In this document: one piece after another, positions 10,676-18,090 of the stretch | How positions within the stretch are numbered: position 1 is the stretch's first letter | Layout: each line of letters opens with the position of its first letter | Origin: a virus | DNA: 22,608 bases | Direction: 5' to 3' (one strand) | Virus record (IMG/VR): IMGVR_UViG_3300032241_001174 | Location: 1-22,608 of that record | Translations under genes and position numbers: made by a program | Notes under the pieces: model-generated | The model's database searches: none | Told to the model about the DNA's origin: nothing | Seen by the model: the letters and a program-made list of their open reading frames with translations, nothing else

Positions 10676-10697
10676 CTACAACCAAAGAAAGAAAATT

Positions 10698-10955
10698 ATG
10701 ACCCCACTTAAAGACCGAGTCCTTGTTGAACTTATTGAAAAAGAAACCACAACATCAAGTGGTATTATCCTGTCCAGTGCAGATCCAATGGAAGCCAATC
10801 GTGGTAAAGTTTTATCAATTGGACCAGAAGTGCTTGACGTGGCAGTAGGAGATGTTATACTTGCTAACTGGAATAAAGCTGCAAAAACAAAGGTAGATGG
10901 AAATGATTTTTACATTCTCAAAGAAGAAGATATTATTGGTGTCTTTGAAGACTGA
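10698..10955 (+). CDS. GroES-like co-chaperonin (first copy, gp31-like)
   Basis: An 85-residue GroES-fold protein starting TPLKDRVLVELIEKE. The mobile loop with the GroEL-binding hydrophobic tripeptide is present (SSGIIL), followed by NRGKVLSIGP, VGDVILANW and the C-terminal strand DIIGVFED. Compared with the 97-residue E. coli GroES, the beta-hairpin forming the roof of the dome is missing, as in T4 gp31. It would cap the host GroEL to fold a large phage protein such as the capsid. The start at 10698 is in-frame within a longer frame; AAAGAAAG is the nearest RBS. Confidence 0.88.
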   Translation: MTPLKDRVLVELIEKETTTSSGIILSSADPMEANRGKVLSIGPEVLDVAVGDVILANWNKAAKTKVDGNDFYILKEEDIIGVFED

Positions 10956-10968
10956 TAATGGTTAAATT

Positions 10969-11229
10969 ATGATTACACCGATTAAAAATTTAGTCATGGT
11001 CGAATTTCTAGAAACCACAGATGTGTCGCCAGGTGGAATTATGTTAACCTTTAAAGACCCAATACGTTCCAGTCGTGCCAAAGTTTTGGCCATTGGACCG
11101 GATGTTGAATCTGTCCAAGTTGGTGATGTTGTTTTGGGTAATTGGATGCGAGCAAAAGAATCTAAGATAGAGGATAAAGATGTTTATTTTATTGAAGAAG
11201 AATATATTAATGCTGTTTTCGAAGATTAG
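10969..11229 (+). CDS. GroES-like co-chaperonin (second, diverged copy)
   Basis: An 86-residue paralogue directly after the first GroES-like gene. It keeps the same plan: TPIKNLVMVEFLE, a mobile loop with GGIML, SRAKVLAIGPDV, VGDVVLGNW and the ending INAVFED. It has diverged strongly elsewhere and also lacks the roof hairpin. Two copies could form hetero-heptamers or serve different clients (inference). Its 3' end overlaps a small Cys-rich frame by 20 bp. Confidence 0.85.
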   Translation: MITPIKNLVMVEFLETTDVSPGGIMLTFKDPIRSSRAKVLAIGPDVESVQVGDVVLGNWMRAKESKIEDKDVYFIEEEYINAVFED

Positions 11230-16160: not shown

Positions 16161-16190
16161 AACCCGCATGGATTATCCCAGCGGGTTTTT
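16161..16190 (+). terminator. Rho-independent terminator
   Basis: AACCCGC (16161-16167), TGG/CCA pairing inside the loop, GCGGGTT (16181-16187) and a T-run to 16190. It is 4 bp after the stop of the 15938 gene and shares design and downstream sequence with the terminator at 15850. Confidence 0.88.
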
Positions 16191-16212: not shown

Positions 16213-16295
16213 TGTTGTTTCCATACAACAAATAGTCCAGTGTTCCGGTCAAGATTGCCAAAAGTCCTTGCCAGAACCTCGGATTCCTGTATAAT
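16213..16295 (+). promoter_or_regulatory. Operator copy I and promoter of the GP88-family gene
   Basis: TGTTGT-TTCCAT-ACAACA (16213-16230), then 37 bp to TTGCCA (16268-16273), a 16-bp spacer and TATAAT (16290-16295). The sequence TATAATCCAAC after it matches the promoter at 14660. The leader of about 45 bp ends at AAAGGAA before the ATG at 16346. Confidence 0.75.
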
Positions 16296-16345: not shown

Positions 16346-17095
16346 ATGCACTTATTATCTACTGGTAATCCAAAAACGCTTAAAGGTATGTCACAAGGTT
16401 ATAATACCTATATTCTTCATTTGGCTCCTTATACATTATCTGGCCATAATACTTGCCCAAAAGCAACCGCTGGTTGTATTATCTCCTGCCTTAATACTGC
16501 CGGTCGTGGTGGTATGTTCAAAAAAGGCGAAAATACCAATACTATTCAAAAGGCCCGTATTCGCAAAACACAATTATTCTATAATAACCGTGATGAATTC
16601 TTTTCATTATTGATTAAAGATATTCTCTTGGCTATTAAACAATCAGAGAAAATCGGTTTAATTCCCGTTTTTCGTTTGAATGGTACCAGTGATATTGCTT
16701 TTGAGAAATATGGTTTCACATATAATGGTGTGTTTTATTCTAATATCTTTGAATTGTTTCCTAATGTCCAATTCTATGATTATACCAAGATTCTCGGTCG
16801 TAAAGTTAATGATATCAAGAATTATTCGTTGACATTTTCTGCCGCTGACGGTAATGATATTGACGTATTAAATGCTATTAAGCAAGGTTATAATATCGCT
16901 ACTGTATTTGGTATTAAGAAAACAAGCCCAATGCCTGATTATTATAATGGTTTGCCAGTATTTAACGGTGATGAGTCCGATTTGCGTTTTCTTGATCCAA
17001 AAGGTGTTATCGTTGGTTTATATGCAAAAGGTAAAGCAAAAAAAGATAATACTGGTTTTGTAAAATATCCAACGATTATGTTACAGGCAGCATAA
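16346..17095 (+). CDS. GP88-family phage protein
   Basis: A 249-residue protein of the family typified by mycobacteriophage gene 88 products. Its signatures are LLSTGNPKTLKG at the start, LHLAPYTLSGHNTCP, CLNTAGRGG, ARIRKTQLFYNNR, PVFRLNGTSDI and a conserved Gly-Lys C-terminal part. Three clustered cysteines, C37-x6-C44-x3-C48, could bind a metal or iron-sulfur cluster. The family is widespread in phages and its activity is not established as far as I know. It has its own promoter. The hammerhead ribozyme begins at the base after its TAA. Confidence 0.85.
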   Translation: MHLLSTGNPKTLKGMSQGYNTYILHLAPYTLSGHNTCPKATAGCIISCLNTAGRGGMFKKGENTNTIQKARIRKTQLFYNNRDEFFSLLIKDILLAIKQSEKIGLIPVFRLNGTSDIAFEKYGFTYNGVFYSNIFELFPNVQFYDYTKILGRKVNDIKNYSLTFSAADGNDIDVLNAIKQGYNIATVFGIKKTSPMPDYYNGLPVFNGDESDLRFLDPKGVIVGLYAKGKAKKDNTGFVKYPTIMLQAA

Positions 17096-17148
17096 GCATT
17101 ACTGATGAGGCTTTAATAGCCGAAACCGATTTTGAATCGGTCTAATGC
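17096..17148 (+). ncRNA. Type I hammerhead ribozyme
   Basis: All parts of the self-cleaving hammerhead are present in order. Stem I 5' strand GCATTA (17096-17101); core CTGATGA (17102-17108); stem II GGCT-TTAAT-AGCC (17109-17121); core GAA plus the pairing A (17122-17125); stem III ACCGAT-TTTGA-ATCGGT (17125-17141); cleavage-site C at 17142 in a GTC triplet; stem I 3' strand TAATGC (17143-17148). Stem I closes the ends, so the topology is type I. Every stem is perfectly paired. Cleavage is predicted between 17142 and 17143. It begins at the base after the upstream stop codon. An extension of stem I for loop-loop contacts is not evident. Confidence 0.92.
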
Positions 17149-17168
17149 AACACATAAAAATAGATATT

Positions 17169-17354
17169 ATGTCAGTTTCTCGCAGCAAGATGGTTTTGGA
17201 TTTGGTTAATAGTGAAATGGAAATGGTCCGTGGTATGAGTATGGATGAAATGGATGAATATGTTGAAACATTATTGGTTCGCATTATCAATGGTTTGCCT
17301 GATAATGAATTGACCGAAAATTATAATGAATATCTTTTTATGATTGAGGAATAA
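17169..17354 (+). CDS. Small hypothetical protein downstream of the ribozyme
   Basis: A 61-residue, methionine-rich, helical, acidic protein (MSVSRSKMVLDLVNSEMEMVRGMSMDEMDEYVE...). An earlier ATG at 17145 lies within the 3' strand of the ribozyme's stem I, only two bases after the cleavage site, so 17169 is preferred; neither start has a clear Shine-Dalgarno. After cleavage the mRNA would have a 26-base leader with a 5'-OH end. It runs in a train of four small genes to 18036. The function is unknown. Confidence 0.6.
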   Translation: MSVSRSKMVLDLVNSEMEMVRGMSMDEMDEYVETLLVRIINGLPDNELTENYNEYLFMIEE

Positions 17355-17355
17355 T

Positions 17356-17568
17356 ATGAAATTGCGTGCCATTGTAAATGGTGTTTCATTTTACACCACC
17401 CCCACAGCCATTAAAAAACGTAAAGTTGGTGATTTTGATTTGGTCAATGCTGCATTATATTACGCATTAGAGTTAAAAGGTACTCATGCAGGTATAGGTA
17501 CCACGGTGCATTATTATGACCACCAAATGAAAAAACACACATTTGATGTTCAATTAAGTGAGGTATAA
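17356..17568 (+). CDS. Small hypothetical protein
   Basis: A 70-residue basic protein (MKLRAIVNGVSFYTTPTAIKKRKVGDFD...) with GAGGA upstream and a TAATATG junction. The pattern suggests a mainly beta fold with one helix (LVNAALYYALELK). It resembles no family I can name. Confidence 0.65.
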   Translation: MKLRAIVNGVSFYTTPTAIKKRKVGDFDLVNAALYYALELKGTHAGIGTTVHYYDHQMKKHTFDVQLSEV

Positions 17569-17793: not shown

Positions 17794-18036
17794 ATGACAA
17801 AAGATGATATTATCACCAAATTAGAACGTGCACAAGATTTACTCGCTGAGGTATATTATTATGCCATTACCAATGAAATTACTGATTTAGAATCGTTAAT
17901 ATCAACGGCTGATGGTTGTATATGTGACGGTTTAGATGCTTTGGATTTTGATGAACCAGATTTTGATGAACCAGATTTTGATGATAATCAACCAGATGAA
18001 TCACAGGAATGGGAATCATTTGATCCAGACTGTTAA
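17794..18036 (+). CDS. Small acidic protein with tandem repeats
   Basis: An 80-residue protein. The first half is helical with three cysteines overall. The C-terminal part is a tandem acidic repeat, FDEPDFDEPDFDDNQPDE, encoded by near-identical 15-bp units at about 17944-17988. Such tails mimic DNA or bind basic proteins; this is inference. The ATG at 17794 lies 2 bp after the preceding TGA. An operator/promoter follows the stop, so this ends the unit. Confidence 0.6.
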   Translation: MTKDDIITKLERAQDLLAEVYYYAITNEITDLESLISTADGCICDGLDALDFDEPDFDEPDFDDNQPDESQEWESFDPDC

Positions 18037-18090
18037 TGTGTTGTAAAAAAACAACACATGGTTGACAATCCTAGGTTCCTGTGTTACAAT
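18036..18090 (+). promoter_or_regulatory. Operator copy C plus sigma70 promoter
   Basis: A 9-bp-arm inverted repeat (18036-18059) contains TGTTGT-AAAAAA-ACAACA. Five bases after the core comes a perfect TTGACA (18062-18067), a 17-bp spacer and an extended -10, TGTTACAAT (18082-18090). It drives the gene at 18127. Confidence 0.87.

Follow-up and report, generated by a model that had tools for sequence, protein, structure and literature searches.

What does a self-cleaving ribozyme do at the junction of two phage genes? Type I hammerheads of bacteria and (pro)phages flank phage genes and are presumed to process long transcripts (Perreault et al., 2011, PMC3088659), and the function of hammerheads in phages has stayed open since then. 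In the viral DNA analyzed here (the window, 22,608 nucleotides in all), an element of this kind lies between a GP88-family gene and four small genes. We therefore asked whether the element is genuine, how it is placed relative to the two neighboring genes, what occupies the same junction in related phages, and which of several possible roles fits these observations.

The ribozyme and the surrounding genes

Direct reading and an explicit descriptor both revealed a complete type I hammerhead of 53 nt at 17096-17148 on the plus strand, with zero mismatches and with stems I, II and III of 6, 4 and 6 bp. The parts listed below were assigned by sequence reading and descriptor, and the element as a whole additionally by its fold and by a held-out covariance model.

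17096..17148, + strand: type I hammerhead ribozyme
17096..17101, + strand: 5′ strand of stem I, GCATTA
17102..17108, + strand: catalytic core CUGAUGA (CTGATGA in DNA)
17109..17121, + strand: stem II, GGCT/AGCC, 4 bp, loop UUAAU (TTAAT in DNA)
17122..17125, + strand: core GAAA
17126..17140, + strand: stem III, CCGATT/AATCGG, 6 bp, loop UUG (TTG in DNA)
17141..17142, + strand: U16.1 and C17 of the cleavage triplet (GUC together with G17140)
17143..17148, + strand: 3′ strand of stem I, UAAUGC, which would form the 5′ end of the downstream mRNA

The element has the core CUGANGA ... GAAA ... NUH, three helices around this core with A15.1-U16.1 closing stem III, and an open stem I with loops closing stems II and III, which is the type I arrangement. 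The cut is predicted from the hammerhead consensus to fall between C17142 and U17143. When both strands of the window were searched with the descriptor, this was the sole site of such strictness, and 300 first-order Markov copies of it yielded no site of equal strictness. The minimum-energy fold of positions 17070-17165 (96 nt) consists of exactly these three hammerhead stems (z = -2.55). Furthermore, a covariance model trained on 18 phage hammerheads, none of them from the window or its GP88 group, scored the ribozyme at 63.1 bits (E-value = 1.1e-14), while the runner-up place in the window reached 12.5 bits. Given the perfect stems, the absence of any deviating core base, the Markov copies and the held-out score, the chance expectation is near zero; the element is genuine and very probably catalytic. 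The original prediction of a complete type I hammerhead at this place was thus borne out by descriptor, fold and held-out model, and the cleavage position it gave (17142/17143) agrees with the cut expected from the consensus.

The genes and signals around the ribozyme are as follows.

16268..16295, + strand: likely sigma-70 promoter of the GP88 unit, TTGCCA-16-TATAAT (11 of 12 matches, consensus match only)
16346..17095, + strand: GP88-family gene (PF17338), 249 aa, stop TAA at 17093-17095 (E-value = 9.3e-36)
17095..17095, + strand: A(-1), which ends the GP88 stop codon and at the same time flanks stem I (conserved in the class)
17143..17168, + strand: 26-nt leader of the downstream gene once cut (class median 26 nt, interquartile range 23-30.5)
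17169..17354, + strand: first small gene 3′ of the ribozyme, 61 aa, ATG at 17169 (open reading frame)
17356..17568, + strand: second small gene, 70 aa
17570..17791, + strand: third small gene, 73 aa
17794..18036, + strand: fourth small gene, 80 aa, last of the unit
18036..18059, + strand: hairpin after the fourth small gene, without a U run
18062..18090, + strand: putative promoter of the next unit, TTGACA-17-TACAAT (consensus match)

A terminator-like hairpin (about 16161-16190, by hairpin fold) lies immediately upstream of the putative GP88 promoter, and no promoter-like site was found between 16900 and 17169 on the plus strand of the window. The GP88 stop codon directly adjoins stem I, which begins at 17096 (distance 0), and 26 nt separate the cut from the ATG at 17169; the abutting stop and the likely start 26 bases downstream of the cleavage site had both been predicted, and both hold. 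There is a further in-frame ATG of the first small gene inside stem I, at 17145, and the longer frame (17145-17354) had no match in Pfam or PHROG. The Shine-Dalgarno-like AAAGGTAG of the related loci L209 and L212 reads AAAAATAG in the window (17155-17162), so the downstream ribosome site of the window may be weak. Elsewhere in the window, the fourth small gene contains a short in-frame repeat, gatgaaccagatttt, at 17950-17985, which encodes repeated DEPDF, and two GroES-like (Cpn10) genes with differing sequences are adjacent at 10692-10955 and 10969-11229.

The GP88 junction in related phages

Relatives were sought with a pattern that left everything free except the core and the 5′ strand of stem I; it gave 12 matches in 11 contigs. 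In nine of the 12, stems II and III were paired and the 3′ strand was exactly TAATGC, features that the pattern did not demand. The GP88 locus itself carries the ribozyme in L209, L210, L135 and L206. In L209 (GP88 99% identical) the same ribozyme follows GP88 immediately, and in L210 (GP88 86% identical) it lies 4 nt past the stop, with a C-G pair of stem II changed to A-U and an altered loop III. L206 (GP88 74%) has two ribozymes, one directly before GP88 and the second farther upstream; their stem I is identical, while stems II and III are different, with pairs changed on both sides. Compensatory stem changes, which the original prediction had proposed to look for in related phages, were therefore seen in L210 and in the two L206 copies. 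The covariation count on alignment A2 is partly circular, its members having been selected by pairing, and more weight is placed here on the pattern matches not selected for pairing and on the held-out model. The ribozyme was absent from 80 GP88 loci and from 28 further whole GP88 phage records among the matches listed, and a GP88-associated ribozyme as a general rule across phages was rejected on these absences.

The most informative relative is L212, which is about 95% identical to the window DNA on both sides of the junction and has no ribozyme there. From the GP88 stop to the equivalent of position 17154, it contains a terminator-type hairpin with a U run, a GIY-YIG gene (L212:4180-4990 region, 204 aa, Pfam E-value = 1.8e-06) and, directly before the downstream gene, a sigma-70 promoter matching at 12 of 12 positions (TTGACA-17-TATAAT). 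Elsewhere among GP88 phages, the gene that follows is often contiguous with the GP88 stop or overlaps it, and some have a strong promoter at the junction, sometimes together with a terminator. The ribozyme looks like a third arrangement of this junction, in which transcription reads through and the RNA is then cut. Because a terminator and a promoter replace it in L212, it probably separates the GP88 message from the four small genes, doing at the RNA level the job of these two signals; the swap backs the split of the message that was originally proposed. L212 is a single case, and the terminator and promoter may have arrived with its homing-endonuclease insertion for unrelated reasons. The window and L209, with the ribozyme, and the near-identical L212, with terminator and promoter, nevertheless form a natural experiment at the same junction, which makes the idea directly testable.

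Taking together the sequence, the fold, the held-out class membership, the retention in relatives with compensatory changes and the replacement in L212, we consider it likely that the element is a functional type I hammerhead acting as an RNA-level operon divider between GP88 and the four small genes. Transcription from the GP88 promoter would continue through GP88 into the four small genes, which appear to lack a nearby promoter of their own. Behind the GP88 stop, the 53-nt element would fold and cut between C17142 and U17143, so that the GP88 mRNA would end soon after its stop with a structured tail and a 2′,3′-cyclic phosphate, and the downstream mRNA would start with a 5′-OH and the 26-nt leader. 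The two parts would then be translated and decay independently. We thus infer cleavage in the cell, co-transcription of the genes, and an effect on expression and stability. In bacteria, 5′-OH ends are poor substrates for 5′-end-dependent decay by RNase E, so such an end could stabilize the downstream part of the mRNA. Against an operon divider stand the presence of a single ribozyme in the window, the possibly weak ribosome site downstream of it and the fact that GP88 phages mostly do without one.

Placement relative to stop and start codons

Placement was analyzed in 222 unique type I hammerheads from 138 of the fetched loci, each with at least 300 bases on either side. When ORFs of at least 50 aa were counted, the stop of an upstream one fell at -4 to +1 nt of stem I in 44.6% of the 222 (shift control: mean 1.0%, maximum 3.6%), and the ATG of such an ORF fell 18-32 nt past the cut in 63.5% (shift control: 5.1%, maximum 9.0%). 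With one case kept per locus and flank-similar cases removed (n = 65), the stop placement was 43% and the ATG placement 51%. The median leader of the class equals the leader in the window (26 nt, interquartile range 23-30.5). Upstream stops cluster sharply at -1 to +1 of stem I. Where the stop exactly abuts a 6-bp stem I (23 cases), it is always TAA, whose final A is the conserved A(-1), and in 29 further cases the first base of stem I serves as the third base of the stop.

The features conserved in the class are A(-1), A(+1) and a UNNNU loop II. A(-1) was present in 100/100 members of the aligned set, in 186/197 six-bp stems, and in 91% after removal of relatives, and 184/197 had an A on both sides of stem I. 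As these flanking A residues are nearly invariant in the class, the final A of the GP88 stop is probably a ribozyme residue in the window as well. UUAAU is the commonest loop II (61/100, a share raised because one scan used UUAAU). A distally extended stem I was also considered for the class and rejected, as the flanks showed no excess pairing (4.32 pairs, compared with 4.34 in the control). Since a position between genes is usual for phage hammerheads (PMC3088659) and the abutting stop is a class-wide habit, the setting of the window ribozyme is less exceptional than the original prediction implied.

The abutting stop and the 26-nt leader might reflect compactness only, the ribozyme dividing the operon by a cut that is uncoupled from termination, and for this refinement of the operon divider we see about an even chance. 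Gaps between phage genes are short, any 53-nt element with a ribosome site ends near both genes, and genes abut or overlap in many GP88 relatives. Moreover, stops arise easily at the ribozyme edge because the core contains UGAUGA and the flanks favor A. The sharp peak of the stops and the uniform TAA sharing its last A with A(-1) speak against compactness as the whole explanation; they fit a stop built into the ribozyme and are no proof of coupling.

The coupling at issue, raised in the original prediction, is a possible gating of the split by translation. A ribosome at the GP88 stop would, with its usual footprint size, cover stem I and part of the core. A terminating ribosome might then block the cut, and the RNA would cleave only after its release, the stop codon being built into the ribozyme with its last A as the conserved A flanking stem I. 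We regard such gating as unlikely, although not negligibly so; the abutment of the stop fits ribosome coupling and also fits compact phage genomes. If gating were true, termination would be a timer releasing the mRNA of the next gene with a fixed leader of about 26 nt in phages of this class. The placement rule, with the stop built into the 5′ edge and the following start about 26 nt away, allows precise predictions to be made about cleavage linked to translation.

Spread, precedents and naming of the class

The copy in L135 (GP88 72%) is an identical 53-nt ribozyme placed after one additional small gene. Its match to the window (63 nt, 98.4%) stops at the ribozyme's own boundaries, and the surroundings differ, the GP88 DNA being 70% identical. 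Because L210 has the closer GP88 and yet the less similar ribozyme, and because the L135 match is bounded by the ribozyme, the element has likely moved horizontally. It might then be mainly a small mobile or selfish cassette that spreads by recombination, tolerates only intergenic gaps and brings the phage little benefit by its cleavage, which would also agree with its patchy presence, including presence and absence among close relatives (L212 versus L209 and the window). However, the precise class-wide position relative to both genes, the terminator and promoter replacement in L212 and the compensatory changes that keep the stems are at odds with a mere cassette, and no mobilizing enzyme or target was identified; we think this reading quite improbable.

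In 48 multi-ribozyme viral loci (for example L278, L206, L198 and L200), hammerheads on the same contig share stem I at 4.41 of 6 positions, compared with 2.87 expected (z = 12.3), which exceeds the sharing of stem II (z = 3.3) and stem III (z = 6.5). Stem I either changes more slowly after duplication or is kept interchangeable. Pairs of hammerheads with a common stem I could allow religation or circularization in a retrozyme-like manner, not mere separation, and the two ribozymes of L206 with their identical stem I do lie around a short block. For the window this is very improbable, since there is only one such ribozyme here and likewise in the 52-kb L209 record, the sharing would also follow if stem I simply changed more slowly once duplicated, and a search for spliced or circular hammerhead products found none (PMC3088659). 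An inactive relic or chance fold providing hairpin structure only is scarcely credible: the activity of the window ribozyme is a prediction, but there are no core deviations, the stems are perfect, the homologs covary and the chance expectation is near zero.

Phage hammerheads between genes have been known since 2011, and the window ribozyme adds one more. It shares with those described in PMC3088659 the core, the three stems, the open stem I and the position between phage genes. The published ones occur several per genome and are presumed to cut long transcripts into messages of single-gene or operon length, and those of an A. tumefaciens prophage self-cleave when transcribed in E. coli (PMC3088659). 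The window subgroup differs from them in its 6-bp stem I with an unpaired A on both sides, its UNNNU loop II (mostly UUAAU) and its tight, quantified stop and start placement, and the window copy in lying at a GP88 locus. The hammerhead of haloviruses HF1/HF2 (HHphage), 13 nt upstream of a start codon (PMC3088659), also lies shortly upstream of a start in a polycistronic unit. It is a variant hammerhead of archaeal haloviruses and precedes the first gene of its transcript, whereas the window ribozyme would divide its unit between GP88 and the four small genes. A literature search that covered few subscription journals found nothing on phage hammerheads later than PMC3088659 and reviews. The interest of this locus is in the natural terminator and promoter swap, the strict placement rule and the Rfam gap described below, not in the existence of a phage hammerhead as such.

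The covariance check against Rfam that had been suggested for this element fails at gathering thresholds. At these thresholds Rfam 15 gave no match in the window, and in 12 ribozyme-rich loci none of the many hammerheads was reported. The best sub-threshold match of the window ribozyme was RAGATH-1-hammerhead (26.3 bits, gathering 56.3). In RAGATH-1 (RF03152), a pseudoknot and an extra stem-loop take the place of helix II (PMC11300833); the core is common to both, whereas stem II of the window ribozyme is a plain 4-bp helix. Identity with the RAGATH-1 pseudoknot was rejected on this score, on the ordinary helix II and on the upstream hairpin, which in the window is part of the GP88 coding region and has no counterpart next to the ribozyme of L135. 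Hammerhead_HH9 (RF02275) has a similar layout, with a 6-bp stem I and a 4-bp stem II, and the window ribozyme scored 16.8 bits against it, not reaching the gathering score of 52. This group of phage hammerheads appears to be a blind spot of Rfam. As the class is common in viral contigs and was missed by the curated thresholds of Rfam 15 in the tested loci, it is probably under-annotated; the covariance model built here detects its members easily.

A pattern with the loop TTTAATA occurred in at least 119 stretches of viral contigs, with up to seven hammerheads in one viral record. A slightly wider pattern was found in 9 stretches in the genomes of 84,980 bacterial and archaeal species, 7 of the 9 having stems I and III. 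Closely similar ribozymes with the inner stem I ATACT occur in three Flavobacteriales contigs (L336, L337 and L340), shortly before an ATGAAAAAAA start, and possibly represent prophages or bacterial use. Among cultured phages, the Pelagibacter phages HTVC019P, HTVC131P and Jormungand EXVC012P have ribozymes that match the class model at 49-53 bits. These sit upstream of a MarR-family gene and an integrase gene, unlike the window ribozyme at GP88, and no ribozyme is annotated in the regions shown for these loci (L328:2497-2567, L329:1998-2068 and L330:1992-2064). The first search pattern additionally picked up hammerhead-like sites in L082, L101, L106, L110, L111, L118 and L123, where a GTC precedes a closed stem I hairpin, and by eye these look like type III hammerheads.
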